A stretch of DNA of 64,000 bases from Prorocentrum cordatum (Eukaryota; Sar; Dinophyceae; Prorocentrales; Prorocentraceae): the NCBI GenBank assembly GCA_963575745.1, contig CAUYUJ010015283.1, positions 983,410-1,047,409 of the forward strand, written 5' to 3'. Position 1 is the first letter of the stretch. Each line of letters opens with the position of its first letter. The notes under the pieces were generated by a model. The model worked only from the letters and a program-made list of their open reading frames with translations. It was not told where the DNA came from and did no database searches. Shown one piece after another: positions 752 through 56,358 of this stretch. A program made the position numbers and the translations under genes.

Positions 752-817
752 GCGCGGCGGGTCCCCGATCGGCCATGTCGCGCAGCTCCGAGGCGATGCT
801 CTCTGGCTCCGCCACGC
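752..817 (-). CDS. CobW-family exon e: VAEP motif
   Basis: After the acceptor GGGGGCAG the frame reads GVAEPESIASELRDMADRG. The opening GC completes the glycine left open by exon d, giving ECSG-VAEP as in CobW proteins. The 3' end is uncertain; a GT lies at about 750-751. The exon borders a GGC/GAC-rich tract (640-720). The plus strand is also open here (SAMSRSSEAMLSG) but has no family match. No later exon was seen before the left edge. Confidence 0.75.
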
Positions 818-3800
818 CTGCCCCCGCCGCCACCCACCCACCCCCCTCGAGAAGGAGGGGAGGAGGCAGAGGAACAAAAACGGTGGCGAACCCGAGTCCC
901 GGCAAACCCGGGTCTTACGCTCCCCCGAGAGGAGGCAGAGCATAGAGGAACAAAAACGGCAGAAACATAATTTCCGAGCTCCGCGCGGAGCGCGCCGGGG
1001 GCGGCGACGGAGCGCCGCCAAGAAGGCGCAGCGCAGAGCCGGTAAATCCGTGCAGAGCTCCGAGGAGTTCCGTCGATGCAGCTGGGTTTTACTCTCCGAC
1101 CTCCTCGACAGGAGAAAGGAAGCGCTTGCTGGAGGCGGCTGCCGACTAGGCTCCAGGGGGGACTAAACGACCGGCAAGTGACGAGGCGGGCACACTGGGG
1201 CTCGTCAGTGGGCAGTAGTTCTGAAGGTGGAGGGTTTCCACGGGGTACTTGGTATGGCGATATCATTGGCCTCAGCGAAGTACTTCCAAACCCCCATCAG
1301 GACGGGGAGAACGAGGCCTTCGAAGACGGAGCCTTGGGAGAGGGGTAAACGGGGGAAGGACGAGGGGGAGAATCAGATGCAAGGGCTGGAGTAGCATGAG
1401 CATCAAAATTAGCCTGGCGAAGGACCCAACCATACGCAGTTGTGAATACCGCACTTGTGAATATATACTTCGGTGGCGCTCCCTATGGGGCCACGAACCG
1501 TATGAGGGGTGTGCCGAATTGTGTGATAGGGTACATAACACGAACGAAAACGATAGGTCTGAGTATGAAAGCTTGAGCGCGGGCGAGTCTAAGCGCGAGT
1601 AAGTCTGATTATGAATGAATATGCGTGCGATTGACTCTGTTTGCACGACTGCGAGCATGGAGTCGCCGAGTGTAAATGCATACGACTGTGAATGGTTTGG
1701 GTCTGCCTGACTCTGAGAAATCGTGACACTGAGCGTAGCCTTCGCAAGGAGTTTCCCTGGGACCCCCGACGGCAGCGCCCGCGCGCCGCGACGCCCATGT
1801 CGGCACGCCCCACACGAGGATCGCGCCCGCTTCCTCCCGATCTTTTCCTTCCTCTTTGCCCGCGCACTCCAAAGTTCAAGGCTGCGGGCGCCGCGCTACG
1901 CGCAGGTCGGACGTCGACGACGGACGACGACGACGAAAAAATCGGCCCTAGGGAAGCTGTCGGGACCACCAGTTCCCTATGGGGCCACAAAACGTGTGAG
2001 GGGTGTGCCGACTTAGGTGTGCGGGGCGCATGCGGGCGGCGGCACTGGGGCCTTCGGTGGAGCTCCATATGGGGCCACGAAACGTGTGAGGGGTGTGCCG
2101 AATTGGGTGCGGGACGCATGCGGGCGGCGGCACTGGGGCCTTCGGTGGAGCTCCATATGGGGCCACGAAACGTGTGAGGGGTGTGCTGAAATGGGTGTGC
2201 GGGACGCATGCGGCCGGCGGCGCTGGGGCCTTCGGTGGAGCTCCATATGGGGCCACGAAACGTGTGAGGGGTGTGCTGAAATGGGTGTGCGGGCGCATGC
2301 GGACGGCAGCACTGGGGCCTTCGGTGGAGCTCCCTATGGGGCCGCGAAACGGGTGAGGGGTGCGCCGAATTGGGTGTGCGGGACGCATGCGGACGGCAGC
2401 AGTGGGGCCTTTGGTGCAGCTCCCTATGGGGCCATGAAATCTGTGAGGGGTGTGCCGAATTGGGCATGCGGGACGCATGCGGCCGGCAGCAATGGGGCCT
2501 TCGGTGGAGTTCCCTATGGGGCCACGAAACGTGTGAGGGGTGATGGTGCTGATGACGGCGATGATGATGACGATGATGGTGATGATGACGGGTGAGAGGA
2601 GGAGGGAGGGGGGGAAGGAGGAGGCAGGGCGCGGGGCGCTGTCTCTTCAAAACGAGGACCCAACACCACAGGATGGTTGGAATAATATATCTTGGTCAGA
2701 CACCCATATAACTACTACAACGTCCCATGCCTCTGTGATCAAATTCCTCCACATCATCCCAACCTGTCCTGTTCGTGCTATCTACTCTTGTTCCTAATCT
2801 TCCTCCTCCTCCCTGTCGATGCTCCTCTCCATCTTCTGTTCCATCCGCATCAGCAGTACTCATCATTTTCATGGTCCTGTCCCTGGGGTCGTCCGGTCGC
2901 GCACCACCGTACGTAATGCTACGGCGGGTTTGTCTTTTCGTCTACAGGTCCTGTTTTGTATTTTCCGGGACACCGGCCGTCATAGGTTCCGCCCCAAATG
3001 ACGTCACGTCCCGCGCCGGCGGCGCCCAGGAATGCCTAGAGATGACCGAAGCCAAGCACGAGCAGCATGTAGGTGGCGATTTGCGCAACAACGCCTCTGT
3101 ACACCACACCGCCCAAGTGCACCACAGCGCGCGTGTACACCACAGCGCTTGCGTACACCGCAAAAGACGCGTGCAACGCAGCGCCGCTGTACACCACAGC
3201 GTGCTTGCGGCACCACAACGCCTGTGTACACCACAACGAACGTGCACACCGCAGCAACCATGTGCAAGACAGCGATTGTGTACACCACAATGGATGCGTG
3301 CACCACACCGCCTGTGCACATCACGGGGCCTGTGTACACACAGCATCCTCGTGCAACGCCTTTTGGTTCTTGGACGGCCAAATCTGCGGGAGTTTCCTGG
3401 ACGCAGGTGGGAAGAGTTAGGATGATGCGGGGAGGATGCGTAGATTCTAGCGGCACTCCTTGTTCCATAAAGATTCGCCTCCAACTTTGTATAACTATCC
3501 TGCGACGTACCCAACCCTTTGTACACAAAAGGCAATTGCATTCAAGACCACTCAATACCGAAGGACATGTCGGCGCCATGGTATAGTGGTGACTTGCGTA
3601 GGACGTACCTCCGATGAGCCTCCCAGAAGCCCATGCGCGCCAGCTGAACCAAGCGCGCCAGGCGCGCCAGGTGCGCCAGGCGCGCCAGGTGCGAGAAGAT
3701 GCGCCACGTGCGCCAGGCGCGCCAGGTGCGCCAGATGCGCCAGGCTTGCCAGGTGCGCCAACTGTGCGCCAAGTGTGCGCCAGGTATGCCAGCTGCGCCA

Positions 3801-6800
3801 GGTACGCCAGGTGCGCCAGGCGCGCCAGGCGCGCCAGGTGCACCAGGTGCGCCAGATGCGCCAGGCGCGCCAGGTGCGCCAGGTGCGCCAGGTGCGCGCC
3901 AGGTGCGCACCTGGCAGGCGCGCCAGGTGCGCCAGCTGCGCCAGGTACGCCAGGTGCGCCAAGCGCGCCAGGCGCGCCAGGCGCGCCAGGTGCGCCAGGT
4001 GCGCCAAGTCCGCCAGATGCGCCAGGTGCGCCAGATGCGCCAGGTGCGCCAAACGCGCCAGGCGCGCCAGGCGCGCCAGGTGCGCCAAGTGGGCCAAGTG
4101 AGCCAGGTGCGCCAGGTGTGCGCCAGGTGTGCGCCAGGTGCGCCTAGCGCGCCAGGTGCGCCAGGTTCGCCAGGTGCGCCAGGTGTGCCAGGTGCGCGCC
4201 AGGCGCGCCAGATGCGCAAGGTGCGCCAGGTGCGCCAGGTGCGCGCCAGGTGCGCACCTGGCACCAGGTGCGCCAGTTACGCCAGGCGCGCCAGTTGCGC
4301 CATGCGCGCCAGGCGCTCCAGGTGCGCCAGGTGCGCCAGGTGTGCCAGGTGCGTCAGGTGCGTCCAGCGCGCCAGGTGCGCCAGGTGCTCCCAGCGCCCC
4401 AGGTGCGCCAGGTGCGCCCCGCGCGCCAGATGCGCGCCAGGCGCGCGCCAGGTGCGCCAGTTGCGCCAGGTGCGCGCCACGTGTGCGCCAGGCGCGCGCC
4501 AGGTGCGCCAGGTGCGCCAGTTGCGCCAGGTGTGTCAGGTGCGCCAGGCGAGCCAGGCGCGCCAAGTGAGCCAGGTGCGCCATGTGCGCCAGGTGCGACA
4601 GGTGCGACAGGTGCGCCAGGTGCGCCAGGTGCGCCAGATGCGCAAGGTGCGCCAGGTCTGCGCTAGGTGTGGCAGGTGCGCCAGGTGCGCCCAGCGCGCC
4701 AGGTGCGCCAGGTGCGCCAGATGCACCAGGTGTGCCAGGTGTGCCCCAGGTGTGCGCCAGGTGCGCGCCAGGTGCGCCAGGTGCGTCAGTTGCACCAGGC
4801 GCGCCAGGTGCGCCAGGTGCGTCAGGTGCGCCCAGCGCGCCAGGTGCGCCAGGCGCGCGCCAGGTGCGCTCAACGCGCCAGGTGCGTCAGGTGCGCCCAG
4901 CGCGCCAGGTGCGCGCCAGGTGCGCGCCAGGTGCGCGCCAGGTGCGCGCCAGGTGAGCGCCAGGTGCGCGCCAGGTGCGCGCCAGGTGCGCGCCAGGTGC
5001 GCCAGGTGCGCCAGGTGCGACAGGTGCGCCAGGTGCGCCGGGTGCGCCAGGTGCGCCAGGCGCGCCAGGTGCGCGCCAGGTGCGCCCAGCGCGTCAGGCG
5101 CGCCAGGTGCGCCCAGCGCGCCAGGTGCGCGCCAGGTGCGCGCCAGGTGCGCCAGGTGCGCGCCAGGTGCGCCAAGAGGACAGGGAGGCCTCAAAGTGGT
5201 CTGCGTCGGACGTACCTCCGCTGGGCCTCCCAGGAACCCAGGAAAGCGGCGACACTTGCGCAAATCGCAGCCCCGCAGGGGACAGGGAAGCCTCAAAGTG
5301 GTCTGCGTAGGACGTACCTCCGCTGTGCCTCCCGGGAACCCACGAAAGTTGCGACAGTTTCGCAGATCGCAGCCCCGCAAGGGACAGGGAGGCCTCAAAC
5401 TGGTCTGCGAAGGACGTACCTCCGCTGGGCCTTCCAGGAACCCACGAAAGTGGCGACAGTTGCGCAGATCGCAGCCCCGCAGGGGACAGGGAAGCCCCAA
5501 ACTGGTGTGCGTAGGACGTACCTCCGCCACTGGGCCTCCCAGGAACCCACGAAAATGACGACAGTTGAGGAGATCGTAGCCCCGCAGGGGACAGGGAGGC
5601 CTCAAAATGGTATGCGTAGGACGTACCTCCGCTGGGCCTCCCAGGAACCCACGAAACTGGCGACAGTTGCGCAGATCGCAGCCCCGCAGGGGACAGGGAG
5701 GCTTCAAACTGGTCTGCGTAGGACGCACCTCCGCTGGGCCTCCCAGGAACCCAGGAAAGCGGCGACAGTTGCACAGATCGCAGTCCCGCAGGGGACAGGG
5801 AGGCCTCAAAGTGGTCTGCGTCGGACGTATGAGGATCTCACTGTTACAGGGTTTGGTGAAGCCAGCGGGCCTGTGAAGGAAACGCGTTTCTTCCTTCACA
5901 GTGTCGTCGGGGAGGCGTCTGTGAAGGAAATGGCCGCGAATTCATTCACATGAGAAGTTCTCAACATAAAAGAAAGCTCGCCAGCGTTGCGAAGCGAAGC
6001 GCAGCGAACGACGCAGAAATTAACATAACTGAGATCGCAACCAAAACGCAACTGCCAAAACGATGAACGGCCACAAGTTTCTAACAACAAAAACTGCTCA
6101 AACCTTTAAACCTTACACGGGCCAGGGGCTCAATTTCTGTCAAAGGTGAATGTTCGGGGCTGCCCAGAGCATCGCATCCCCCTTCATCCTCTGACTCGGC
6201 GGAACGGCGGAAGCCCTGTAAAACATGAGATCATTGCATCCTCGCTCTCTCGAACCTGCCCCCCAGCAAAAGAGAAGACGCGCCGCCCTGTTGCACGCAA
6301 GGCCGCCGCGGCGGCAAAATGAATCTCCGCGTTCGTCGCGGCGTGAGCCGCACGAGCCCAACGAGGGCCTCGCAACCGCTACCGAGCTAAGGGCCAGCTC
6401 GCTAGCCTCCTGCCTGCATCCCGCTCCTGCCCCTGAACGGGCGGGGCGGCTGGGGCGCAGGAGGCGACGAGGGGGGGGGGGGCGATGCGCAATGAAAGCT
6501 ATACTACATAGCCTTCTCTCAACATCATCCTCATTAGGGCTGCCCTCCGAAGACCCCAGAGACTCCTCAATCATCATTCTTACTTCCTCCACGTACCTCC
6601 TTACTCCTCCCTCTCCGTAGCTCCTTGTCTCCGCCCGCCGCACTATTCCCCCTCCCCTTCGATTCCGAACCTCCTCCTTATCGGCCCCAACCCTCTTCCG
6701 CATATCCCCCCGCGTGCGCTCTGATTGCGCACCCCCCTGAATTAAGGCCCAGCTCGCTCGGGCCGCAACTCACCCGAGGATGTGCCCGACGCCCTCGCAG

Positions 6801-14015: not shown

Positions 14016-14092
<77 letters not shown>

Positions 14093-14105
14093 TCGACGGC
14101 GACGT

Positions 14106-14142
<37 letters not shown>

Positions 14143-28478: not shown

Positions 28479-28541
<63 letters not shown>

Positions 28542-34187: not shown

Positions 34188-34242
<55 letters not shown>

Positions 34243-34882: not shown

Positions 34883-34967
<85 letters not shown>

Positions 34968-38718: not shown

Positions 38719-38756
<38 letters not shown>

Positions 38757-39227: not shown

Positions 39228-39287
<60 letters not shown>

Positions 39288-39634: not shown

Positions 39635-39666
<32 letters not shown>

Positions 39667-42078: not shown

Positions 42079-42109
<31 letters not shown>

Positions 42110-45100
42110 GCAAGTCCCAGTGCCTGTGCCGCAGTCCTCTGGTGCGCTTGTCGAGTGCATGACTGTTGGACACATCTTGTCGCACTGCCGCAGAGAAGGG
42201 ACAGGGAGGGGGGCGGAGGAGGATAAGGCGGAATGACGGGGATAACCGAACAAAAAAGTGTGATAGAAAAACAAACTGGGAGGAAGGAAGGAGGAGGAAG
42301 GGAAAACCGACAAGCAGGGAAGAGGAAGAGAAGAAGAAAGAGGCGGATACAAAAAAAAGGGTGAGGATGAGGAGGATGATGAGGAGGAGGCGGCGGCAGC
42401 AGAGGGAAGGGGAGGCAAGAGGCAGGAAGGGCAATGAAAAAGAGGAGGACAAAGGAGGGAGCAGAGGGATAATAATGCGCAACGAAAGCGAACGAAGTAT
42501 CAATAGCACTATTAGTATATCCATTAAGGGACAAACAAACCTACCTCGCTTTTGACCATCCTCGCTTCCAAGAGATACTAAGCGATGCCAAACTACGGCC
42601 TGTACTGGTCAGGCCGCTTGACGAGGAGGCGCGTGGTATGACTTGGTTTTGCCTAGAAGCGAAAGCGGGGTAGGTAATTCACGCTCTGATCCATGCGGCT
42701 TCGTATCCACCATTATCCGCGGGTTCGCGCCCGAAAATCCAAACTGCACGGGCGTTGATATCAATGTGGTCGGTGCTCGTGGCTCAAGCCGCGTAGTTCG
42801 GAGGGGGCGACGGGTAGGACACAGACAGCCGCCGCTGTGAAGTGTTCGCAACGGCGCTCCCCACTGGCGTGGCTATCAGGACACTCGCTTTTCATCCTGT
42901 GAAGTTGTCTGACAGCCCCTGGGCCAGTCGGGGCACGATTGTGGCACTACGCGCAGGTATTACTATTCGATGTCATCGTTCGCCTCATCCTCCTCCCCCT
43001 CCTCCCTCCATCCCTCCCTCCCGATCCGCCGATCCCCGCTTGCCGGGGTGAGAAGGCGCGCGGGATGTTTGGCAGTCCCCCTCCTTCCCCCAGGTGACCT
43101 AGCACTCCACACAAGCTAGGCCCACAAACGACCCACGTAAGTCCAGGGGTCGGCGGATGTAGCGCAAACCTTTGGAATATCAGTAGCACGAGGAGTGCGA
43201 AGAGGGAGCGCCAGGGAGGAGGAGGAGGAAGAGGAGGAGGAGGAGGAGGAGGAGAAGGAAGAACAGGAGGAGGGAGCAAGGTGGAATGGGCAAGGAGGAG
43301 GAAGCAAGGGGAACGGAGCAGGAATGAAGGAGGTGTAAAGGATGAGGGCGAGGGATTTGTGGACTGCGACTCTGATGAAACTCTAGGCTTAACAGAAAAG
43401 CGCAGCACTCAACGAACTGCAGACGGACACTGTGTCATCTAGAGACAAAAGCAGCAACGCGCACAAGCAGTACGGGCGCAAAGAATGTGTGAAATCCAGG
43501 TCCGTCCCAACCCCCATGCACCTCCACCATCCTCAACAAGGACTCACATGCCGGCACAGCAAGTCACCAGCTGTCTACGCACTGGCAGGAGAAGGCGAGG
43601 GAGGAGGAGGGAGGGAGGAACTATGATCCGAAAGGAGAGACTGAGTCTGGGACGCAGATCCAAAGCTTCCAGCTCGGTAGGAGAGCATTCCGAGGGGGAG
43701 TCGCGAGAAGGCTGCCTGACAACTCCGGCCCGTCCGCTCTCCTGAGGAGGCGGCGCTGCACAACGAACGCACAACAACAGTTCGTCGTCCCGAGAGGGGA
43801 AGGAGCAAATCTTCGCACCCTGACGCCCGGAAACGCAAGACGAGACGGCGGGCGAACACCGCACGATGATTTCCACGCCAGTCCGAGGAAAGGGGCGCCG
43901 GCCAGAGCAGCAGCGGCGAGCTCGGCGCGGGAGTCCTGGCCGAGCTCCCGGGCGGCGGTCTCGGCGAGCTCGGCGCAGGACGAGTCGGCGGGCGCCGGGG
44001 CGGTATGGGGCCGCCGTGGGCGGCGGCGGGGCGGCGGTCGCACGAGTTCGCGTCGCACGATCCCCACGGCCTCCTCACAAGGGGCCTCCAGCGAACCTCC
44101 AGAGGCGGCTGCTAGCAGGAGGCGACTGCAAGGGCCGCTCGGCGTGCCTCCCGCCTCATCTCTTCCGAGCATCCTCCCGGCCGATCCCCCGGCCAACAGT
44201 CGGAAGAGGACGCCTGCGGGTGGAGGGAAACATGAGCGATCTACCGAGGGTACGAGAATCCAGCCTCGCGAGAATGGTATGCTGCAATCATCGGCCTTAT
44301 CTGGGCTCGCACTCGCAGAGCACAGCATGAGGGATAATGAAAAAGGGAGCGAGGACAGGAAGGAAGGAAGGGGCAACAAACGTCTGGGACACATGGCGCA
44401 TGCATGATCATCCAACGGCTCGCCACCTCTCCACAGACTGCCTCCGTCGAAGCTCCAAGGAAATGGGGGCACGCGAGCCCACTGCAGGGGCAATCTGCTC
44501 ATCTGCGAACCTGCATACCTGCATACATCTGCTATTCAATCTACACCGCCATTCAGGAGACCCAGCGATTTGCTCAGCTGAAGCGGCATCTAGCAGATCT
44601 GCCAAAAGACGGGGAAGAGGCAAACGCATACAAGGCAGAGGCCAGGGCCGTACCCAGCGACGCACATGACGAGCATTATCATATTGGATAGCACTGTTTA
44701 TGTGATCAGACTGCATACTACACATGTTAGCCCAAGATCGCGAAATGCGAACCCATTTCCAACGCATGCCGAGGACGACGACGCTCTGCCGCGCCGTGGG
44801 ATGCCAAAGTACGCGCTCATCGCGCACCTCGGCCAGTGACGCGTTCACAGCTGGAGTCGGGGTGGGGCCCGTAGGCTGCCGCGCCGCCTCCCCTTGGCCC
44901 CGAGAGGGGACGCTGGGGGGGGAGGGACTTGCCCACCTCCGCACTCGCAGCTGGAAGCGGGGTGAGGCCCGTAGGCTGCCGCGCCGCCTCCCCCGGGCCC
45001 CGACAAGGGACGCTGGGGGGGAGGGGCTTGCCCACCGCCGCGGCGCGACCATCCCGCCCTTCGGACGCGGCCACAGCAGCGACATCAGGATCCAGTGCCA

Positions 45101-48100
45101 CGCGCTGCCAGTATCGACGCAGGAAAGCACCACGGTCTGGGGTGGGGAGACACATCGCCGCCACCGTCAGCTTACCGCCTTTCACGAGCAGCATTCCGGC
45201 ATCTGAGACCACGGCGTAGCGGTCCACGGCAACTGGAGGGTCCACAGCAGCTGAACCCACAACGCCTGGCACCGATCGTGCGAAAGGGGCGCAGTCCCTC
45301 GCGGCCACGGCCATCTGCGGCGCATCGGCGGCAGGACACTGCGGGGCCGGCAAGGGCGCAGCCAGCCTGGCCATGGCAGCCTCCGCCTCCGCTCTGTCAC
45401 GTGGACGCTCCCGAGCGGCTGATGGCACCTCGCCGCCCCCCCCGGGCCCCGACGGGGGACACTGGAGGGAGGGGCTCGCCTCCCCCGGGCCCCGACAGGG
45501 GACGCTGGGGGGGAGGGGCAGCAGGCCGAGGGACACGAGCACCAGCCTCTGCTTCGAGCTCGGCGGCGCAGTGGGGCCATGGCCGCTGCCGCCAGGGGTG
45601 CTGGGGAGCGAGTTGCCCGGCGCCTGCCCAGAAACCCAAGGCGGTAGAGCTGGTGCCGGCGCCTGCGCAGAACGAGCAGCAGCACGATCCAGAGCAGCCT
45701 CCGAGCGCCGACGACCTGCAGCATCGTCAGCACGATTCCGGAACGGCAGCAGCTGCATCTCCAGCAGCGGCAGCCCGGCAGCTCCGAAAGTGGTGACCAG
45801 GAAGGCGCCGGCATGGTGACGCAGGGCCCACGGCATCCGTTCCAGGAGCGCGATGGGCCGGCGGCGACACCAGCGCCATCGGCCTCGAGTCGGCTCCAGC
45901 ACTGGGGCCGGCAGGAGGGGCAGCCGACGGCGCGGCGCCCGGTGGCTACGCGTAACAACGAACAGCAGCACCAGCCGGAGGTCGATGAGGACCATCGCGG
46001 TCCGGCACGGCGGGTCCACGAACAGGCTCGGGACCAGGACGAGGAAGTAGACCAGGACCTCCTGGCAAGGACGCATCAACAGCACGTCGAGGAACCCGCG
46101 CGGCATCTTCCGATGGCGCGGCGCCCGTCTTCCACCGCTTAGCATCCGGCGCCTCCACGTGCTCCAAGGGCTCCCGCAGCAGGATGTCCGCAGGTGACAT
46201 GTCGAGCCCGGGCGGGGTGCCACACCTCATCAGGATGCGCACGGTCAGCGCATGCACTTGCGCATGTCGGACGGCTACCCTGCGCGCCATGAGGCGGCGT
46301 CTGCCAGCAGCGGAGGCCACACTGGATGGGCGGCACAGCATGGGGCAGTACATCCGCAGGCAGCCATGGCGGGGCACGGCTGGCCCGACGCGCCGAGATC
46401 GGCGAGGCTGGTGCGTCTGGCAGCTGTCCCGACGAGGTTCGCAGAAAACCTCGAACCGGGACGGCGGCTTGGGCCAAAATGGCTACGGAGGGGAAGAGGG
46501 GTTGAGGGAGGAGCAGGAGAAAGAAAAACGGATAAGGGAGGCAGGGAAGAGAAGTAGGATATTGAGGAGGCGTCTCCGTGGAGGCCCTCCCCCTCTATCT
46601 CTCCCTCGTCCCCCCCCCTTCCACTTGAACCCCTGGCTCACCACCATGCCGTCCGCGTCGGAGAAGGTTAGCACCTCGGAATCGATGTTCGCCTCTGGTA
46701 GGCAGGAAGCGGAGGAGGAAGATGAGGGGCAGGAGGCTTAGGAGAAACACGAGGGGGAAAGCTGTGCTGTCAGAAACGAAGCAGCACGAGGCACCCGATG
46801 AATATATCCTTTCCCCGTGGGTGTGGAAAGGACTGCGATCAAACAAGCCGAGGTCCTCGACGGCACGGAACAAGTGGATACGATGATCTTCTGTACAAGT
46901 TGTGGCAGCAATGTCTATTGGGCGATGCGAGGTAATGCGAGGGCGCAGTGCGAGTAACTCGACACCTGTTGGCCACGCACGACGATGGGCGAGAGCACTG
47001 AACCGCATCTTCGTCGGCAAACAGCCCCTCACATTCACGCATCGAACCGCCCGCGATGCTGGAAGCCTCGGCTGCAAGAGCCAGGAGCTGTGGTTGCCGT
47101 CCCCCGAAGCCCTAAAGATGGACAAGAACGAAAGCACGGGGGGCGGCTGAACCGTTACAGAAAAGCAACAACTTCATAGGCACAACCCTCAGGGGGCCCG
47201 CGCTGAGTTCTTAGATCGACGCTGGAATCCCCCACTCTGGCGCGCGGAAGGCGCCAGGGGCGGCGCCAGAGGAGCCGTCAGGAGGGTCAAGCGCGGATAC
47301 AAGCAATGCTAATTGACCTCCGAATGTTTACGCAAATGCAGCTGCTTCGTCTTCGAAGTCAGTCAGATCACGATTCGAGGAGGCCTCAGGCGTCTATGTA
47401 ACCTGAGGGGTCGCCCTTTGCGCCTGGCCGCCGACGCGTCCTCAGGAGGCTGTTCGGCATCGGGCGGTGGCTATGGCTCCTGAGCAATGTCTGCCAGACA
47501 GGCCCTACGGGGGGGCTCTGTGTCACTCGGTCCCGCGGGCCTGGCCCGACGCCCCTCTTGCGTCTGGGCCCCGAATCTCCTCTTGCAAAGAATGGAGGAG
47601 CACCCGAACCGCTCCAGACCGATCGAGGAAAACTGTGACGAGGGAAAAATGACGATGAGGAAGAGAAGGAGGAGGAGAGGGAGGACGAGGAGCGGGCTGA
47701 GGCGACGCATGGGTATGGAGAGCTCAAGGGTGGCGATGAAGATCAAGCAGGCAGGAGAAAGTGGAGGAAGGGAGGGAGGGAAAGAGGGAGGAGGAGGAGG
47801 AGGAGGAGGAGGAGGAGGAGAAGACGGATGCTAGGGGTCTGTGGCCGTTGTGCTTCAAGGCACGAACGCCCGGGCCCGCCTCCCGACCCGAGGGTCGCGG
47901 CGGCACCCAGGGGTGGCACCGTTCCCGCGCCATGGCGGACTCGGAGCCCGCGACGCACCTCGAGTCAGCAGCCTTGGCCGCTCCCGCAGCGCGCGGAGAA
48001 GGCCTTCGTCAGCAAGAAGGACGTCAGCTTTAACCACAACGAGAACGGGACCCACAGCCTCTGGGCGACGGCCGTCGGGGACGCTCGGAAGGGCAGGCAA

Positions 48101-48971
48101 GCCAGCGCGCGCCACCTGGGCCAGACGAAGCTCGCGGAGCAGGCGCAGATCATCAAATAGTGGCCCGAGCAAAAGAAACACAGCACAGCGCCGAAACACT
48201 GAAACAGAATACAGGCTCAACTCCTTCCCTTTCAACACAGATGCAGACGACGTTGTCCCTGTTCTCGTGCGCGGCACCATCCTTCCAGACGCTGGTGAGG
48301 GCATACTTGAGGAGGCCAGCCACTGCGCCAAGGAGCCCAGGGACACCCGCGCCTTCGACATGCTGCCGCCGCCCACGCACCCGCCTTCAGCTCGGGACCC
48401 AGCCTGGGGACGCGAGAAAAGCCTAGGCGATCCTGGCCCCCGAGGCGGCGGCCAAGCGTCGGGCGGAGCACGCCGCCCTGGGCGCCGCCAGCCTTGAGCC
48501 GCCTGCCGCCAGCAGAGGCAGCGCCGCACCGCGAGACGGACGTTCTACCCCAAGGTCAAATTGGAGGTCGACCGCATCACCCACCTCGTAAACGGCGACC
48601 CCCTGACCCGCCACGCCAGGGCCGCCAGCGAGGGGAGGGTTGCGCCCAGGATGGCACCACAGCCCGCAGTACCAAGGTAACAAAGATGCGAGGAAGGAGG
48701 GGGAGGAGGAGGCAGAAGGAGAGGAGAATGGAGGATGAAGAGGAAGGTGAACCAAGAGGAGGAGAAGGAGGAGGGTGGAGGGAGAGGAAGAATAACGGGA
48801 GAGCAGGGAAGAGGAGGAGCAGCAGAAGCTCGATAAACCAGGAGCAGGAGCAGCAGGATTATGAGCTGGAGCAGGCGGAGCTTCCAACCGCCTCAGCCAC
48901 GTCGTTGACAACCACGCCGACTTTGAGACCCTCACGGTTGGACAGGATGTGCTGGACCATGGTGGTCTTCC
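752..48971 (-). CDS. CobW/COG0523-family GTPase gene, partial, five exons spread over 48 kb
   Basis: Members of this family are P-loop GTPases that deliver metal ions (zinc, cobalt) to client proteins. Five minus-strand exons of 51-80 bases were found at 48892-48971, 46642-46692, 40118-40196, 35076-35126 and about 752-817. Translated in order they give the family motifs in the expected order: GKTT (end of Walker A), NREGLKVGVVVNDVAE, ANID, NGCVCC (the CxCC metal site), WDRLVVECSG and VAEP. Codon phases at the joins agree (0, 0, 1, 1). Codons end mostly in C or G. The start of Walker A upstream of GKTT and the part of the G-domain after VAEP were not found, so the gene runs off both ends. Introns are about 2.2, 6.4, 5.0 and 34 kb. 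I am very sure of the family and sure of the exon order; whether one transcript really spans all five is inferred. Confidence 0.85.
1410..2540 (+). repeat. 90-bp tandem array, locus A
   Basis: The core TATGGGGCCACGAAACGTG recurs at 1981, 2071, 2159, 2249, 2338, 2428 and 2518, about 90 bases apart. One detached, diverged unit lies at 1470-1545, preceded by a leader GCGAAGGACCCAACCATA. Because 90 is divisible by three the array is open in several frames, giving 30-residue repeats such as GAFGGAPYGATKRVRGV. No evidence that it is translated. Confidence 0.9.
2644..2690 (+). repeat. Dispersed tail motif, copy 1
   Basis: TCAAAACGAGGACCCAACA followed by GGATGGTTGGAA. The same motif occurs at 31713-31755 and 63315-63362, each time after a purine-rich stretch and a tandem array. 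Confidence 0.7.
3080..3350 (+). repeat. 18-bp minisatellite array 1
   Basis: Units of the form ACACCACAGCGCCTGTGT repeat with an 18-base period. Left flank (3000-3080) contains CCAGGAATGCCTAG and TAGGTGGCGAT. Right flank (3365-3500) contains TTCCTGGACGCA and GAAGAGTTAGGATGATGCGG. The same flanks occur at the other arrays. Confidence 0.85.
3650..5170 (+). repeat. 9-bp satellite array, (GTGCGCCAG)n, about 1.5 kb
   Basis: The array consists of 9-base units GTGCGCCAG with GCGCGCCAG variants and occasional frame-shifting insertions. No stop codon can arise from the unit in any frame, so all six frames are open for hundreds of codons. One plus frame reads collagen-like Gly-Ala-Pro; others read Arg-Gln-Val or Cys-Ala-Arg. 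Confidence 0.95.
5179..5830 (+). repeat. 102-bp tandem array, locus A
   Basis: GACAGGGAGGCCTC starts units at 5179, 5281, 5383, 5485, 5590, 5692 and 5794, that is every 102 bases with one of 105. Each unit contains GGACGTACCTCCGCTGGGCC and GCGACAGTTGCGCAGATCGC. The period is 34 codons, so the frame stays open. Adjoins the 9-bp array directly. Confidence 0.95.
5825..5950 (+). repeat. Hairpin-tipped end of the 102-bp element (right end)
   Basis: Contains GGGTTTGGTGAAGCCAGCGG and then the palindrome GTGAAGGAAACGCGTTTC-TTCCTTCAC. The reverse complement of this block is found at 31395-31470, at the left side of the other 102-bp copy. A second GTGAAGGAAAT...ATTCATTCAC stem follows. Confidence 0.8.
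6184..6368 (-). CDS. Gene 2 probable last exon
   Basis: The frame after GGTTGCGAG reads PRWARAAHAATNAEIHFAAA, then RVFSFAGGQVRESEDAMISC, ending FRRVRG and TGA at 6184. It looks like an Ala-rich helix followed by a short tail. A competing frame (ending APNIHL) is less codon-biased. The link to the exons above is inferred from strand and spacing. Confidence 0.4.
6184..17410 (-). CDS. Gene 2: large multi-exon gene of unknown function
   Basis: At least 17 minus-strand blocks with C/G-biased third positions are read here. Approximate positions: 17156-17410, 16830-16937, 16401-16455, 15780-15985, 14830-15294, 14167-14237, 13849-13935, 12985-13075, 12526-12821, 11955-12232, 11027-11418, 10549-10980, 9290-10401, 8320-9043, 7543-7733, 7167-7472 and 6184-6368. 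Many start after a pyrimidine-rich AG and some end at canonical donors, for example GTAAGG at 7541. The proposed start is the ATG at 17410 (MANPSWSTQARRR). The introns are packed with GGA/CTC microsatellites. I recognise no family. The gene may be two genes, and the whole locus lies inside the last visible CobW intron. Confidence 0.55.
7167..7733 (-). CDS. Gene 2 exons near the 3' end
   Basis: The exon at 7543-7733 contains SSWSGPHIAIGSVKIDDVDF and ends at a canonical donor (GAGG then GTAAGG). The next exon, 7167-7472, starts after GCGCCCAG and contains DATMDIVVEEIEVPMREAAF and KISWHKLVLSEFEVGNATAA. The intron between them is about 70 bases. Both read as folded protein; no family match. Confidence 0.6.
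7830..8300 (+). repeat. GGA-rich microsatellite in a gene 2 intron
   Basis: Imperfect (GGA/GAG)n for about 450 bases. It corresponds to CTC/TCC on the transcribed-sense minus strand, between the exon at 8320-9043 and the exon ending at 7733. Confidence 0.85.
8320..9043 (-). CDS. Gene 2 exon, about 240 codons
   Basis: After GCCGTAGCAG the frame reads DATKFCGPPLRMKENAIRSA, then KSLVELAITKGINHIKIDEA, then RFFMLFRAMDGSAALMTMFK and WIVCAEAQVAAAKGPVRLLL. Codon use is strongly C/G-ending. The 3' end runs into the GGA-rich tract at 7830-8300, with a candidate donor GTGCGATG. Function unknown. Confidence 0.6.
9290..10401 (-). CDS. Gene 2 longest exon
   Basis: This is an uninterrupted frame of about 370 codons starting after CTGCCCTGCAG. 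It includes LYLDDVVNIIFHAVRDVSAA, FTKWSQLRPRIYSHLRAVHG, and several Ala-rich helical stretches near EAASADEERRKTVAAAVKRG. The plus strand is open over the same length but has the codon bias of an antisense shadow. No family is recognised. Confidence 0.6.
10549..11418 (-). CDS. Gene 2 exons joined by a short intron
   Basis: Two exons lie close together. The first (about 11027-11418) contains GGFYNECTKYIQDNYGDVF and ERVSDWWGDCVAFEDSS. The second (about 10549-10980) contains NTVLGVFNTISGYFLKPEY and a basic Ala/Lys coiled stretch (AAEKAAAKKKVAAEAKA). They are separated by roughly 50-65 bases ending CATCCCAG. The first donor is not GT. Function unknown. Confidence 0.55.
11455..11940 (+). repeat. 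GGA tract next to CTC tract
   Basis: Plus-strand purine (GGA)n at 11455-11590, then pyrimidine (CTC)n at 11655-11940. Two complementary mirror tracts lie in one gene 2 intron and could pair with each other. Confidence 0.85.
11955..12232 (-). CDS. Gene 2 exon with acidic tail
   Basis: The exon reads RIQLVHPTAPPDALYYVRVQ, then an FFEKLELTPVIVRDWQQYR segment, and finally a basic RKRRR patch and a Glu/Asp/Gly run. The donor is GTCCAGGAG. The acidic run grades into the adjoining GGA-rich intron, so the exact 3' end is uncertain. Confidence 0.55.
12526..12821 (-). CDS. Gene 2 exon, unrecognised folded segment
   Basis: After the acceptor CTCCCCCCAG the frame reads FTKDYVLPWNSAQPFF, then RYYKKLILKVGVTWSDRAGD, and ends LLEGQ at a GT donor (GTGCCA). 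Composition is that of an ordinary globular protein, unlike the surrounding repeats. No domain is recognised. Confidence 0.55.
13270..13840 (+). repeat. CTC tract followed by GGA tract
   Basis: (CTC)n at about 13270-13495 is followed by (GGA)n at about 13505-13840, again complementary to each other and intronic to gene 2. Confidence 0.85.
14012..14158 (+). repeat. GAC triplet microsatellite
   Basis: Nearly pure (GAC)n interrupted by GTCGACGGCGACGTCGGC. Open in every frame, producing Asp, Arg, Thr, Ser or Val runs. Confidence 0.95.
14570..14690 (+). repeat. CTC microsatellite with a palindrome
   Basis: (CTC)n is broken by CCTCCACCTCCTGAGGAGG and its complement, forming a strong hairpin near 14580-14610. 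Confidence 0.8.
14830..15294 (-). CDS. Gene 2 acidic low-complexity exon
   Basis: The open frame starts MRPPEDYVINRMDGMDGQEG and continues as a Pro/Ala/Glu/Asp-rich chain with two similar copies of an HP(D/E)AAPS motif. It ends ISDSD followed by TGA. The acidic composition suggests a disordered linker. Whether the TGA is a true stop or is spliced out cannot be decided from sequence alone. Confidence 0.45.
   Translation of the reverse strand: MRPPEDYVINRMDGMDGQEGQPISDAASDEVLPHPDAAPSAGPPPLPAPARLLAERADRDDDSGESDKPHPEAAPSTGPAAPSPPLDPRIGKMVPQTPDESDDYQRSQRSPDSFVQEEGGEEEEAARATEESEGEAAEGAADAAEQKTPISDSD
15780..15985 (-). CDS. Gene 2 Cys-rich exon (zinc-binding-like)
   Basis: The frame reads DCLFCVKCGAWSVDENWC, then GQGRWRNECIGLGRSSHHTNC. 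This is a C-x2-C-x2-C start with further Cys and His residues that could hold a metal. It follows an AG acceptor in an acidic run (NREEDE). Cys-rich segments containing CxxCGAW/CGAY recur in dinoflagellate proteins as I remember them, but I cannot name a domain. Confidence 0.55.
17156..17410 (-). CDS. Gene 2 first exon, Pro/Ala-rich N-terminus
   Basis: The exon opens with ATG and reads MANPSWSTQARRRCLEDREP, then MPYRMVQPRLNDQ. A long Ala/Pro stretch follows, ending in QLAQAPQ. Codons are strongly C/G-ending. The exon closes at CAG followed by a GC-type donor (GCACTTTGG). No signal peptide or membrane segment is visible. GGCTCAAG, the last eight bases of the dinoflagellate spliced leader, lies about 65 bases upstream, but that is too short to weigh. 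Confidence 0.55.
17440..18100. other. Gene-poor stretch before the palindrome array
   Basis: No codon-biased frame on either strand. The sequence is less GC-rich than the genes on either side and contains degenerate halves of the GTGAAGGGA motif, for example near 17998 and 18062. Confidence 0.5.
18100..18610 (+). repeat. Array of about 15 short palindromes, TGTGAAGGGA-TCCCTTCACA
   Basis: The unit TGTGAAGGGA plus one base plus TCCCTTCACA is a perfect or near-perfect inverted repeat of about 21 bases. It recurs roughly every 30-36 bases from 18116 to 18591. The bases between units vary (GATAACCCCTC, GACCGCGC, GTGCCC). Compensating changes keep some stems paired (AAGGAATTCCCTT). Precursor-like degenerate copies lie at 17980-18115. 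Confidence 0.95.
18620..19260. other. No gene seen
   Basis: Mixed-composition sequence with short CT-rich runs after 18980. No exon with the codon bias seen elsewhere. Confidence 0.5.
19273..19396 (+). CDS. Short exon-like block, unrecognised
   Basis: About 40 codons read AAFEETVSFLKSSVCNNNGI, then FGMMI, with nearly all codons ending in C or G. A GT lies at the end (ATCC then GTCATC). The antisense frame is open but lacks this bias. It lies between genes 1 and 2, on the opposite strand. Confidence 0.35.
19985..20065 (+). repeat. CT dinucleotide microsatellite
   Basis: (TCTC)n with a few interruptions, in the gap between genes 2 and 1. Confidence 0.9.
21101..22393 (-). CDS. Gene 1 small 3' exons with Cys/His motif
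   Basis: Four small exons are read. 22323-22393 is YKTNFKDDIELGVMHVLVPN. About 22050-22180 is GMIRAVKAFMKQKVQPSVSR followed by a Cys pair. 21674-21749 is CKLCHVGWHENCMQTLGDM, with a C-x2-C-x3-W-H-x2-C arrangement that could bind zinc. 21101-21285 is VRMDELFAEYNPHDPVGGRG, ending in TAG. Donors at the first and third are GTACCC and GTTGAC. The assignment of all four to gene 1 is inferred from strand and order. Confidence 0.45.
21101..30780 (-). CDS. Gene 1: transposase-like multi-exon gene
   Basis: Minus-strand exons are read at 30582-30780, 29889-30078, 27743-28330, 26394-27424, 25197-25820, 24784-24979, about 22578-24187, 22323-22393, about 22050-22180, 21674-21749 and 21101-21285. The proposed start is the ATG at 30778. 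Exon 4 has a hAT-like SFCLVHQIHLIAKSQLKRC stretch and a later RFGSIYRTGQHFLRATRR segment; exon 6 has EVEGLNSIIKR. The long seventh exon carries a Gly-rich and Asp/Glu-rich insert. The tail has a CKLC-x3-WHENC motif. Order and composition suggest a transposon-derived protein, but no DDE triad was identified. Phases were confirmed only at some joins. Confidence 0.5.
22400..22575 (+). repeat. CTC microsatellite in a gene 1 intron
   Basis: (CTC)n between exons 22323-22393 and 22578-24187. GGA-rich in the direction of transcription. Confidence 0.85.
22569..24187 (-). CDS. Gene 1 long exon with Gly/Asp/Glu-rich insert
   Basis: The frame stays open for about 540 codons. It begins EVFYVARIAKVNWLGLGRDP and is then Pro-rich. 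It continues with RAASSKFGLMLVFEGAVEAA, a Gly run followed by an acidic Asp/Glu region, IVDPSLVHDAFRAEDEALLQ, and DYAPIKYIFWDSVEQWKGRD. It ends KKFEFPGAGKLALPAN, followed by A-G-stop in frame. A GC donor at that point (GCGGGATAGG) would let the protein continue into 22323-22393. Confidence 0.6.
24195..24600 (+). repeat. CTC microsatellite with long C homopolymer
   Basis: (CTC)n interrupted by a run of about 20 C at 24370-24390. Lies in the gene 1 intron between exons 6 and 7. Confidence 0.85.
24784..25820 (-). CDS. Gene 1 exons 5 and 6
   Basis: Exon 5 (25197-25820) contains RWQADALAAVHSSQFWVDMA, IQRLLYWFEKMSVGFVDRR and FACVLGKFPYTIVWLCREAP. Exon 6 (24784-24979) starts after CCCCCGTCAG and reads RIDRQLWVLARTITRMLASD, then EVEGLNSIIKRCLEMAPGM. 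The LNSIIKR segment recalls C-terminal transposase helices. Between them lies a GGA/TCC-rich intron. The donor of exon 6 is GTTGTT. Confidence 0.55.
26394..27424 (-). CDS. Gene 1 exon 4, hAT-like core
   Basis: An open stretch of about 340 codons starts after TTGGGGCAG. It contains NLTRSAVFAAAQCWYRSSYE, a long helical region, FPFVWPFWSFCLVHQIHLIA, and PPKPLTGRFGSIYRTGQHFL. The C-x2-H followed by hydrophobic residues, with a later R-(W/F)-x-S pattern, resembles the middle of hAT transposases. It ends near MNRPS at donor GTAACC, after which the intron is CTC-rich. Alternative donors GTCGGC and GTCGGT lie just upstream. Confidence 0.55.
27743..28330 (-). CDS. Gene 1 exon 3, Ser/Pro-rich then coiled coil
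   Basis: After CCCTGCGCAG the frame is Ala/Pro/Ser-rich. It then reads ALNVAVLSMSREQLVASVLE, LVSKHREMRHVAQAVRRKRK and ATIASLEERLSGFTFVKANP, a likely coiled coil with a basic patch. It ends MTRDGWYRPGFKRNYGYASC and TLDMLDRT at donor GTCGGC. The phase (1) matches the next exon, which opens with AG to complete a glutamate codon. Confidence 0.6.
28460..28600 (+). repeat. GA dinucleotide microsatellite
   Basis: (GA)n of about 75 bases with shorter GA-rich continuation, just upstream of gene 1 exon 3 (CT-rich on the sense strand). Confidence 0.9.
28775..29775 (+). repeat. CTC and GGA microsatellites in gene 1 intron 2
   Basis: CTC tracts at 28775-28975 and 29128-29430 and a GGA tract at 29548-29775, with little unique sequence between. 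All within the intron between exons 29889-30078 and 27743-28330. Confidence 0.85.
29889..30078 (-). CDS. Gene 1 exon 2
   Basis: The acceptor CACTGTAG is followed by a frame reading WRPFVLRAPALVPGWWQPLS, then PFTVIDVIRGAEAAGLRLG, ending WEMHAAGH at donor GTGGGATAGG. The same GGGATAGG follows the end of the seventh exon at 22570, where the donor would be GC. Confidence 0.55.
30582..30780 (-). CDS. Gene 1 first exon with candidate trans-splice site
   Basis: The ATG at 30778 starts MEALLARALALVAHPSRSPR with strongly C/G-ending codons. Two bases upstream is an acceptor-like CTTTTTGTCGGCAG, preceded directly by AGCCATTTTGGCT, identical to 13 bases of the dinoflagellate spliced leader. The exon ends at GTGAAG (phase 2), which fits the one base opening the next exon. 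Confidence 0.55.
30793..30805 (-). promoter_or_regulatory. 13-base match to dinoflagellate spliced leader core
   Basis: On the minus strand AGCCATTTTGGCT lies 14 bases upstream of the gene 1 ATG and is followed by TTTTTGTCGGCAG. The leader added to dinoflagellate mRNAs contains the same 13 bases followed by CAAG. Genomic relics of the leader arise when processed mRNAs reinsert. The CAAG end is not present here, so it could be a decayed relic or chance. Confidence 0.45.
31354..31470 (+). repeat. Hairpin-tipped end of the 102-bp element (left end)
   Basis: Two palindromes, CTGTGAAGGGAGTCC-GCGGACTCCTTCACAG and GTGAAGGAAGAAACGCG-TTTCCTTCAC, are followed by GGTTTCACCAAACCCTCTCC. The block is the inverted copy of 5825-5910. 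Confidence 0.85.
31470..31755 (+). repeat. 102-bp repeat, locus B, with dispersed tail motif
   Basis: Two 102-base units with the same sequence as 5179-5830 (GGACGTACCTCCG, GGCGACAGTTG). They are followed by a GGA-rich bit and the tail TCAAAACGAGCACCCAACA...GGAGGGTTGGGAAA. Confidence 0.9.
31800..33080. other. No convincing gene
   Basis: Short frames exist, for example a minus-strand THIGAVGFGEFRMNRPFYDA block near 32000 after a CTCAG acceptor and a plus-strand LCPACEIAMLAYFAGANPRV block at 32420. Neither has clear splice sites at both ends or a family match. Confidence 0.4.
33084..33296 (+). repeat. 53-bp tandem array, four copies
   Basis: Units start at 33084, 33137, 33190 and 33243, exactly 53 bases apart. 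Each contains TGCGCCATAG and GGCCGAGAAT(A/C)(A/G)AACC. Confidence 0.9.
33722..33965 (-). repeat. 18-bp minisatellite array 2 (inverted)
   Basis: The plus strand shows GTGGTGTACACAGGCGCT units, the reverse complement of array 1. The right flank 33966-34040 (GATCGCCACCTACATGCTGC, CCTAGGCATTCC) is the reverse complement of the left flank of array 1. Confidence 0.85.
34170..35060 (+). repeat. CAT/ATC triplet microsatellite, locus A
   Basis: About 900 bases of (CAT)n with CAG, CGT and CCT variants. It lies just downstream of CobW exon d in the intron. Produces long spurious Met, Asp, His and Ile frames. Confidence 0.95.
35076..35126 (-). CDS. CobW-family exon d: DRLVVECSG motif
   Basis: The 51-base exon follows the acceptor GTCGCAG and reads ISKLDKGWDRLVVECSG once the split glycines are joined. 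It corresponds to the family segment (F/Y)D-hydrophobic-VIES(T/S)G, which precedes the (I/V)(S/A)EP turn. The donor is GTGGGC, phase 1. The downstream intron starts inside a large CAT microsatellite (34.15-35.06 kb). Confidence 0.85.
35420..35905 (+). repeat. CAT/ATC triplet microsatellite, locus B
   Basis: About 480 bases of imperfect (ATC)n with CAG interruptions, upstream of CobW exon d. Confidence 0.9.
35948..36040 (+). repeat. Dispersed block with CCCCGCTTGCCAGGGGTGA, copy 1
   Basis: This block is matched at 43028-43100 (CCCCGCTTGCCGGGGTGAGA followed by GGCAGTCC and CTTCCCCCAGG). CGCTTGCC then GGGGTGA forms a small stem. Confidence 0.7.
36215..36835 (+). repeat. 90-bp tandem array, locus B
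   Basis: Same family as 1410-2540. The core TATGGGGCCACGAA or variants recurs at 36288, 36378, 36468, 36555, 36645, 36735 and 36825. It is preceded by the same leader (GCGAAAGACCCAACCATA, then GCAGTTGTGAGTA). Unit consensus differs slightly (GCGCGTGCGAGCGCAGCCAC). Confidence 0.95.
37600..38500 (+). repeat. AT-rich duplicated block with CT microsatellites
   Basis: Two copies about 320 bases apart (37770-37915 and 38090-38225) share CTGGGGTTGAT, GAGCTACCCTACACGAGCAC and a CATAAAGCG...TAATACATTTGAA segment. Each is preceded by a (CT)n run. TGTCTCAAGCGAAA repeats at 37608, 38380 and 38413. The composition is far more AT-rich than the window average. Confidence 0.85.
38655..39440 (+). repeat. CAT/ATC triplet microsatellite, locus C
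   Basis: About 780 bases of (ATC)n with CAG, CGT and CCT variants, in the CobW intron between exons c and d. Confidence 0.95.
39615..39830 (+). repeat. CAT/ATC triplet microsatellite, locus D
   Basis: About 215 bases of (ATC)n with AGT and AGC variants, close to CobW exon c. Confidence 0.9.
40118..40196 (-). CDS. CobW-family exon c: CxCC metal-binding motif
   Basis: The 79-base exon begins after TGCGCAG and reads ALQNGCVCCSGRDDLFFQLR, then ALADSS. NGCxCC followed by (S/T)xRDDL is the diagnostic metal-binding motif of COG0523 proteins. The exon ends in phase 1, which requires a GC donor (CAG then GCGTCA); a GT two bases further on would break the phase with exon d. CAGGC is repeated at the start of exon d. 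Confidence 0.9.
40445..40705 (-). CDS. Exon-like block, unrecognised
   Basis: The frame reads GCTAGWANAQLKIKACEEWL, then APHAQEIMITGPWDI, with C/G-ending codons in its first half. It lies just upstream of CobW exon c on the same strand. It does not match the CobW family and would interrupt the good join between exons b and c, so it is treated as a separate intronic block. The plus strand is open here as well. Confidence 0.3.
   Translation of the reverse strand: MRLRGCTAGWANAQLKIKACEEWLAPHAQEIMITGPWDIRPTSPFQQGLQQRVSGGPCSQEFRSFLLAFGAPAPLSEPSLQLRGAA
40814..41083 (+). CDS. Short open frame, unrecognised
   Basis: The frame MSQQYILNHWLRMMTQVDTL, then RALFGMSTTQAHHAGEFMAR and VVRKRGSAVGASWKQMC, has protein-like composition but a different, less GC-biased codon use than the exons nearby. 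It could be an old coding remnant. No family seen. Confidence 0.3.
   Translation: MSQQYILNHWLRMMTQVDTLGTLRALFGMSTTQAHHAGEFMARRLDVSMVMHHIAQYPGCLNLFLCVVRKRGSAVGASWKQMCVKTLPH
41247..41813 (-). CDS. 188-codon minus-strand frame, unrecognised
   Basis: The uninterrupted frame contains NMWVVLDSVGRPKLEHLVLQ, SGTAGFSPIQNEPFFTGLPG and LLVEQCKEFDIYICLASS. It is not repetitive, so length alone gives it some weight, but it overlaps a codon-biased plus-strand block at its left part. It sits inside the CobW intron between exons b and c. Confidence 0.3.
   Translation of the reverse strand: MRRGGRGRWGRRRRRRGAHTTYHTMGIDGDRCETHRSPLRGSANMWVVLDSVGRPKLEHLVLQGQWPVLLRTPLHTSPLPQRWDTSGTAGFSPIQNEPFFTGLPGLANNRKDGMVVPASTSHPSTLLKYGTPGKPSEPTLRAGHRAQALLVEQCKEFDIYICLASSRSSGWIASQRTLAATAALLVRM
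41704..41871 (+). CDS. Exon-like plus-strand block, unrecognised
   Basis: The frame ENDAFRIDPHQFPLYGMSYG, then a Ser run, then HVGYDILQPLFEGWAYGVKE ends at a GT (ACGG then GTGGGT). Its last half has almost exclusively C/G-ending codons. Overlaps the antisense frame at 41247-41813; only one is likely real. Confidence 0.35.
42010..42110 (+). repeat. CT microsatellite
   Basis: (CTCT)n with a few interruptions. The following 450 bases (42180-42560) are purine-rich with no gene seen. Confidence 0.85.
43868..44180 (-). CDS. Ala/Arg-rich coding block, unrecognised
   Basis: A strongly C/G-ending frame with a possible ATG (MLGRDEAGGTPSGPCSRLLL) continues through EAVGIVRRELVRPPPRRR and AELAETAARELGQDSRAELA to FLGLAWKSSCG. 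It lies on the minus strand inside the CobW intron between exons b and c. No family is recognised. It may be an exon of a larger gene or of an inserted element. Confidence 0.4.
44404..44691 (+). CDS. Short open frame, unrecognised
   Basis: The frame ends with SIYTAIQETQRFAQLKRHLA, then DLPKDGEEANAYKAEARAVP and HDEHYHIG before TAG. The C-terminal half looks like a helical protein segment. The antisense frame is also open. No family recognised. Confidence 0.25.
   Translation: MIIQRLATSPQTASVEAPRKWGHASPLQGQSAHLRTCIPAYICYSIYTAIQETQRFAQLKRHLADLPKDGEEANAYKAEARAVPSDAHDEHYHIG
44817..46440 (-). CDS. Unrecognised minus-strand gene with repeated inserts
   Basis: Two connected frames are seen. The upstream one (about 45950-46440) includes VAVRHAQVHALTVRILMRCG and PADILLREPLEHVEAPDAKR. 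The downstream one (44817 to about 45870) includes PWALRHHAGAFLVTTFGAAG, EMQLLPFRNRADDAAGRRR and DRYAVVSDAGMLLVKGGKLT. A change of frame near 45870-45950 suggests an intron. The downstream part is interrupted by several near-identical GC-rich segments, each ending CCCCCCAG. It is nested in the CobW intron between exons b and c on the same strand. Function unknown. Confidence 0.45.
44848..45520 (-). repeat. Repeated GC-rich segments resembling introner elements
   Basis: On the minus strand a segment containing CCCTCCCCCCCAGCGTCCC and TCGGGGCCCGGGGGAGGC recurs. Two long copies lie 100 bases apart (44848 and 44948 on plus coordinates) and shorter ones lie near 45437-45520. Each contains a pyrimidine tract plus CAG like a 3' splice site. 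They interrupt an otherwise coding-like frame. Confidence 0.75.
46642..46692 (-). CDS. CobW-family exon b: ANID segment
   Basis: Seventeen codons read ANIDSEVLTFSDADGMV. This fits directly after NDVAE (family pattern NDxAExNID) and directly before ALQNGCVCC. The acceptor is CCAGAG before GCGAAC and the donor is a canonical GTGAGCC. Both ends are phase 0. The sequence GAGGCG occurs at the end of exon a and again at the start of this exon, so the intron is flanked by a short direct repeat. Confidence 0.85.
47655..47825 (+). repeat. GGA microsatellite
   Basis: (GGA)n with interruptions, upstream of the plus-strand exons at 47990. Confidence 0.85.
47990..48676 (+). CDS. Plus-strand exons of an unrecognised gene inside a CobW intron
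   Basis: Three plus-strand blocks are well codon-biased. 47990-48157 starts RAEKAFVSKKDVSFNHNENG and ends in a TAG. 48241-48294 is 18 codons, MQTTLSLFSCAAPSFQTL, between a TTTCAACACAG acceptor and a GTGAGG donor. 48427-48676 begins AILAPEAAAKRRAEHAALGA, changes frame, and ends with FYPKVKLEVDRITHLVNGDP before donor GTAACA. They lie antisense to the CobW gene, between exons b and a. I do not recognise the product. The frame change and the TAG leave open that this is a broken copy. Confidence 0.5.
48892..48971 (-). CDS. CobW-family exon a: Walker A end and NDVAE motif
   Basis: The 80-base exon starts after a pyrimidine-rich acceptor ending CCCGCAG and opens in mid-codon (two bases of a glycine). 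It reads GKTTMVQHILSN, then REGLKVGVVVNDVAE, an almost textbook CobW N-terminal segment. The residues just upstream in the open frame (ALPA) do not match the usual GFLGAG, which is why an intron is placed inside Walker A. The donor appears to be GC (GAG then GCGGTT). The preceding exon was not found up to the right edge. Confidence 0.9.

Positions 48972-56295: not shown

Positions 56296-56358
<63 letters not shown>

Follow-up and report, generated by a model that had tools for sequence, protein, structure and literature searches.

The GTP-binding part of a CobW-family gene in exons of 37-80 nt across long introns of dinoflagellate DNA

Short coding pieces that lie kilobases apart on one strand raise the question of whether they belong to a single gene. 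At the locus described here, the preliminary description had joined five minus-strand exons, none longer than 80 bases and together amounting to about 330 coding bases, into the G-domain of a CobW-family GTPase stretched over more than 48 kb. All five are present and open on the minus strand of the window (the whole 64,000-base stretch that was analysed, with zero N and 60.5% GC), all lie on one contig as supplied, and the exons, e1 to e5, sum to 327 nt. The span of more than 48 kb is likewise borne out, and it is extended to 56,822 bp by a further exon, e0, that had been missed. The earlier observation is thus confirmed and its interpretation supported, and both can be extended. The pieces very probably form the N-terminal, GTP-binding part of one nuclear dinoflagellate gene for a CobW/COG0523 (G3E) GTPase, with exons of 37-80 nt and introns of 2.2-34.3 kb.

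Six exons and their joins

The exons were first located by motif search and then read with their flanks, and their limits were set by phase and splice dinucleotides. In protein order, they are as follows (a slash in the text below marks a splice point or join).

62155-62116, minus strand: probable N-terminal exon, AFNFDDDGMGGFGG; GGAG followed by a GC donor, 5' end not fixed
57573-57537, minus strand: exon e0, 37 nt, VPVSIVCGFLGA plus the first base of G; carries the first half of the P-loop
48971-48892, minus strand: exon e1, 80 nt, rest of G plus KTTMVQHILSNREGLKVGVVVNDVAE
46692-46642, minus strand: exon e2, 51 nt, ANIDSEVLTFSDADGMV
40196-40118, minus strand: exon e3, 79 nt, ALQNGCVCCSGRDDLFFQLRALADSS plus the first base of G; metal-binding CxCC
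35126-35076, minus strand: exon e4, 51 nt, rest of G plus ISKLDKGWDRLVVECS plus the first base of G; Walker B side
817 to about 752, minus strand: exon e5, 66 nt, rest of G plus VAEPESIASELRDMADRG and onwards; 3' limit not fixed

Joined, e0 to e5 give 364 nt without a stop or frameshift, and all phases agree. The gene extends at least from 57573 to 752, which corresponds to a coding density of 0.64% (364/56,822 bp), and it probably starts near 62155. At the other end, a GT donor at 751 is one option for the 3' limit of e5.

Exon e0 was found by prediction. The family match of e1-e5 starts inside the P-loop, at GKTT, so that a preceding exon ending in GFLGAG was to be expected. A six-frame scan of the window with the probe VPVTILCGFLGAG places this exon on the expected side and in phase, at 57573-57535 of the minus strand, where the sequence reads VPVSIVCGFLGAG and scores 62 of 69, against 27 for the runner-up site in the window and 30 for the best of 10 shuffled windows. 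With a probe longer by two residues, the score there is 61 of 81, compared with 39 for the best shuffle. The exon is bounded by an AG/GTGC acceptor and a GCAG/GCGG donor and ends in phase 1, fitting the start of e1, while an alternative acceptor two bases upstream (GCGAG/AGG) is possible.

Further upstream, the minus strand at 62155-62116 reads AFNFDDDGMGGFGG and then shows a GGAG/GC donor, and several homologs start with a stretch such as MLDFDDGMGGLGG. When only verbatim homolog N-termini are counted as probes, 9 of 14 match best in the window at this site, and eight of these nine beat all 30 shuffles, with P0001 as the exception; the other five (P0031, P0032, P0035, P0043, and P0050) match best elsewhere in the window. 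On this likeness 62155-62116 is a probable N-terminal exon, which is kept apart from the six firm ones. A linker exon may exist between it and e0, because homologs have a longer glycine-rich linker there, of roughly 10-30 residues. The continuation after e5, corresponding to the homolog segment FLAGIICVVDAS, was not found within the window, and the C-terminal half of the gene, with the NKxD motif and the CobW_C domain, would lie past the low end.

The possibility that unrelated motifs had been assembled by chance was addressed with a position-specific matrix made from 19 homologs and containing no window letters, the homologs themselves having been found via the window's peptide. Each 14-column stretch of the matrix was slid across the six frames, with a threshold of 36.7, which is 4 below the top of 36 shuffled frame-scans (40.7). 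Exactly six diagonals rise above it, with best scores of 50.5-80.7, and they are the six exons e0-e5, which share the minus strand and follow one another strictly in protein order. Chance assembly is rejected on the strength of these six collinear diagonals and the absence of any other above the threshold. Exact copies of four-letter motifs do occur elsewhere (ECSG at 6148 on the plus strand; VAEP at 25532, ANID at 8700, and DGMV at 41469 on the minus strand), with flanks unlike those of the family.

The joins were examined by comparing 35 homologs (P0001-P0012 and P0029-P0051) one by one with the six-exon peptide, a homolog being taken to span the joins when its alignment begins no later than residue 8 and reaches residue 105 or beyond. 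All five joins are spanned by 19 of the 35, of which 18 are gapless and 70-82% identical, and the remaining one, P0049, has one gap. These 18 cross without interruption the four joins on which the five-exon model depended most, NDVAE/ANID, DGMV/ALQNGC, SSG/ISKL, and ECSG/VAEP. Transcripts that cross the joins in a related species had been named as support for the model, and transcript-derived homologs do provide this, including at least P0030 (TRINITY), P0035 (CAMPEP/MMETSP, Noctiluca), and P0040 (mmetsp), as judged by their source names. P0001 and P0036 come from a source called 'merc', a marine eukaryote transcript catalogue.

Family, relatives and likely function

The joined peptide of e1-e5 matches the Pfam family cobW (PF02492) with E=2.3e-25 (89.6 bits against a cut-off of 20.7) over profile positions 12-102 of 180, and the Escherichia coli YjiA structure 1nij with E=2e-15. 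Together with the joins, which are in phase, the Pfam match upholds the proposal of a family-typical G-domain in the right order and with matching phases. The Walker A motif GxxGxGKT is present as GFLGAG/KTT, split across e0 and e1, the metal-binding CxCC as CVCC in e3, and the Walker B region VVECSG lies across e4 and e5, as in dinoflagellate homologs. The bacterial subfamily ZigA (NCBIfam NF038288) was considered and rejected: its cut-off of 600 is reached neither by the fragment (83.1 bits) nor by four dinoflagellate homologs (109-211 bits), and consequently no bacterial subfamily name is assigned.

A protein search with the e1-e5 peptide returned 28 matches among 36 candidates, the best being 77% identical across the whole query. 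A second search, with X padding added to the query to admit full-length relatives, gave 347 matches. Among the best 120 of these that were listed, a leading group is 65-82% identical, the matches below it are at most 53% identical, and no protein exceeds 82%. The named near homologs come from Durusdinium trenchii (80%), Noctiluca scintillans (79%), and Cladocopium goreaui (78%), over 92% of the query, and from Polarella glacialis (77% over 74% of the query). In a tree, the row of the window joins P0031 (Durusdinium), P0038, and P0046 (Cladocopium) with support of 84/76, the bootstrap being unsettled. A second, more distant CobW-type protein (P0066, P0070, and P0071; 45-46% identical) is found in Cladocopium and Polarella, which suggests two or more COG0523 lineages in dinoflagellates.

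Most full-length dinoflagellate homologs carry a His-rich loop and a CobW_C domain (PF07683). The mRNA of the present gene would be expected to yield a similar protein of roughly 415-516 aa, composed of the G-domain, the His-rich loop, and CobW_C. This protein most likely binds GTP, together with Zn(II) or Co(II) at CxCC, and would pass the metal to client enzymes. Its likely function as a GTP-dependent zinc/cobalt chaperone is drawn from knowledge of the family and from work on ZCRP-A, a diatom COG0523 protein for which a role as a Zn/Co chaperone is suggested in passages of the published description (PMC9010474).

The locus could also be a non-functional relic, its exons being left over from a CobW copy that was active in the past but has ceased to be spliced, and whose introns grow unchecked. 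The end branch of the window's row in the tree is 0.27, compared with a median of 0.11, which fits a fast-evolving copy as well as a decaying one. Exon e3 is also less conserved (65-73% identity to eight homologs, with 71-96% for the other exons), the introns are very long, and a near-identical protein is absent among the matches listed. However, the coding sequence has remained free of stops and frameshifts over its 364 nt, its phases are consistent, the splice dinucleotides are all intact, and the GTPase and CxCC motifs are retained. GC content at codon positions 1, 2, and 3 is 67, 44, and 85%, respectively, the last of these standing well apart from the 51-63% GC of the introns. A decayed copy is accordingly regarded as unlikely, and a functional gene is much the more likely.

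Long introns and what they hold

The five introns between the six exons average 11.3 kb. They are listed here with the one feature inside them that bears on the lineage of the DNA.

48972-57536, minus strand: intron 1, 8565 bp, GC-AG
46693-48891, minus strand: intron 2, 2199 bp, GC-AG
40197-46641, minus strand: intron 3, 6445 bp, GT-AG; holds the spliced-leader relic
46488-46468, minus strand (the gene's sense strand): spliced-leader relic CCGTAGCCATTTTGGCCCAAG, in intron 3, about 150 bases after e2
35127-40117, minus strand: intron 4, 4991 bp, GC-AG
818-35075, minus strand: intron 5, 34258 bp, GT-AG; holds sense-strand open reading frames (ORFs) and tandem arrays

All six acceptors, as placed, read AG/G, and the five fixed donors comprise three GC, two GT, and no GA. 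Expression of the functional gene would involve transcription of the minus strand across at least 57 kb, with the spliceosome joining the AG/G acceptors to GC or GT donors. Introner elements are recognized, under the criterion given in passages of PMC10666404, by two features close to both intron ends, namely inverted repeats 8-20 nt long and direct repeats 3-5 nt long. In this gene the intron ends show no convincing inverted repeats: the best arms contain no more than 7 exact bases, a level equalled in 9 to 160 of 200 shuffles. By eye, 8 of 10 bases pair between the outermost ends of intron 1, an arrangement ranked lower by the scoring used. Junction repeats of 5-6 bases are present in three of the five introns and are partly explained by AG/G.

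The relic in intron 3 matches the dinoflagellate spliced leader at 20 of 21 bases, or 21 of 22 including the preceding T. Elsewhere in the window the closest site differs at 6 positions, and 20 shuffles yield nothing nearer than 5 mismatches. A scan with a shorter, 15-base leader was weak, giving 1 match at up to 2 mismatches, and 17 of 100 shuffles also had one. The bases that follow are CCGCCG and do not form a splice donor, so that the sequence is taken for a relic rather than for a leader gene. Passages of PMC7245778 give the leader sequence and trace such relics to mRNAs that re-integrate. The relic marks a retroposed mRNA, the identity of which was not found. Being genomic, it shows lineage, not trans-splicing of the CobW gene.

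Two groups of ORFs lie on the sense strand in intron 5. At 7791-11070 (minus strand), three overlapping or adjacent ORFs of 436, 470, and 191 aa contain protein-like, non-repetitive stretches and may represent a nested gene or a mobile element. At 22569-27476 (minus strand), three consecutive ORFs of 609, 314, and 452 aa resemble exons of one large gene and are possibly a mobile element. A Pfam search of nine long intronic ORF translations gave none above the cut-off, and the two weak matches obtained fall short of it (E=0.036 and 0.11); six of these ORFs had nothing in PHROGs at E<=0.01, and two had no match in the PDB. For ORF 26118-27476, a protein search considered 7994 candidates sharing most words, none of which reached E<=0.001; the low-complexity end of this ORF may have absorbed words. 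The window as a whole contains 0 Rfam families at gathering thresholds and 0 tRNAs in a tRNA scan.

Tandem arrays make up 42 TRF rows with a score of at least 150 in the window, overlapping rows counted. Related arrays of a 90-base repeat lie 34 kb apart in intron 5 (1974-2542) and intron 4 (36271-36830). A 102-base repeat forms an array at 5178-5829, with two more copies (66% and 96%) at 31443-31659, 26 kb off in the same intron. About 165 copies of the 9-base unit GCGCCAGGT, with 79% matches and several frames open, occupy 3637-5174. At 18040-18597 lies an array of palindromic units based on CTGTGAAGGGAATCCCTTCACAG, with periods of 32, 63, 95, and 158 bases, and within it a long inverted repeat (18188-18306 and 18438-18556) that is 90% complementary. 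Arrays of an 18-base unit of the ACACAGGCGCTGTGGTGC type are found at 3079-3357, 33696-33982, 54037-54368, and 54675-54987, some of them mutually inverted.

The length and content of intron 5 bear on whether one gene or two are present. If there were two, e0-e4 would come from one CobW gene, with its later exons lost or located elsewhere, e5 would come from another copy, and the 34 kb between them would be intergenic DNA with other genes. The interval 818-35075 is fourfold longer than the next longest intron and contains the sense-strand ORFs of 191-609 aa. Yet the break would fall inside the conserved ECSG/VAEP, where phases match and a GT donor faces an AG/G acceptor, and in the profile scan no other exon of that type turns up in the window, the bare VAEP at 25532 (minus strand) having non-family flanks. 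Two genes are therefore highly improbable. Least probable is an assembly artefact in which the exons are closer in the real genome and repeat arrays have been expanded or the contig is chimeric: the many intronic tandem arrays are hard to assemble, but the six exons are correct in order and strand, array expansion leaves the non-repetitive sequence between them unexplained, and published mean introns, in passages of sources that include PMC10666404, are already 3.5-4.7 kb in large-genome dinoflagellates.

In the single working gene, the introns would have been enlarged by insertions, among them the tandem arrays, the retroposed mRNA fragment bearing the spliced leader, and the ORFs. It is conceivable, though offered tentatively, that intron 5 ranks among the longest recorded in dinoflagellates and arose through nested insertion, and that retroposed mRNAs and ORFs reside inside the introns of a working metal-chaperone gene. 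In that case, more than 100 kb of DNA would be taken up by the complete gene for a protein of about 440 aa, and its expression would depend on either highly processive transcription or recursive, stepwise splicing.

Placement among dinoflagellate genes

The DNA is of dinoflagellate nuclear origin, because of the nearest named homologs, the AG/G acceptors combined with GC and GT donors, and the 20/21 spliced-leader relic. A bacterial or viral origin is rejected on account of this relic, the dinoflagellate homologs, and the split exons. Protein-profile scanning alone recovers a conserved gene from raw dinoflagellate DNA at such a low coding density, down to an exon of just 37 nt. According to passages of PMC10666404, long-intron genes of dinoflagellates are predicted by published pipelines. 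The locus offers a test case for exon recognition by dinoflagellate spliceosomes where exons measure 37-80 nt, donors are a mixture of GC and GT, and introns reach 34 kb, and also for the question of whether current annotations lack or break up genes of this sort.

Among proteins, the closest comparison is with dinoflagellate CobW/COG0523 members (P0031, named 'Metal chaperone YciC', P0035, P0050, and P0046), which are 77-80% identical, share the order of motifs, and align without gaps over the covered part. Unlike these, the window holds only about the N-terminal quarter, and the likeness is read from proteins, not from gene structures. The diatom ZCRP-A likewise belongs to COG0523, comes from an alga, and has the Walker A, CxCC, and Walker B motifs; it is likened here by its description in passages of PMC9010474 and not by sequence. 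The same passages report a ZCRP-A homolog matching the dinoflagellate Azadinium spinosum in ocean metaproteomes.

In gene architecture, the nearest reference is the Prorocentrum cordatum genome, for which passages of PMC10666404 give averages of 4709 bp per intron, 240 bp per exon, and 24,462 bp per gene. Donors there are GC (51.4%), GT (24.7%), and GA (23.8%), and 79.7% of acceptors are AGG. The locus resembles that genome in GC content (59.7% there, 60.5% in the window), in its GC and GT donors and AGG acceptors, and in having long introns, whereas it departs from those averages in its mean intron of 11.3 kb and its exons of 37-80 nt. For Amphidinium gibbosum, a mean intron of 3468-3732 bp is given in passages of published sources, PMC10666404 among them. 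Intron 5 is long even for dinoflagellates. Its counterpart as a single very long dinoflagellate intron is one of 26,372 bp in Crypthecodinium cohnii, cited as notable in passages of a review (PMC11453091); intron 5 measures 34,258 bp, and no length record is claimed for it. The gene is an extreme case of the long-intron layout already known in large dinoflagellate genomes, and not a new kind.
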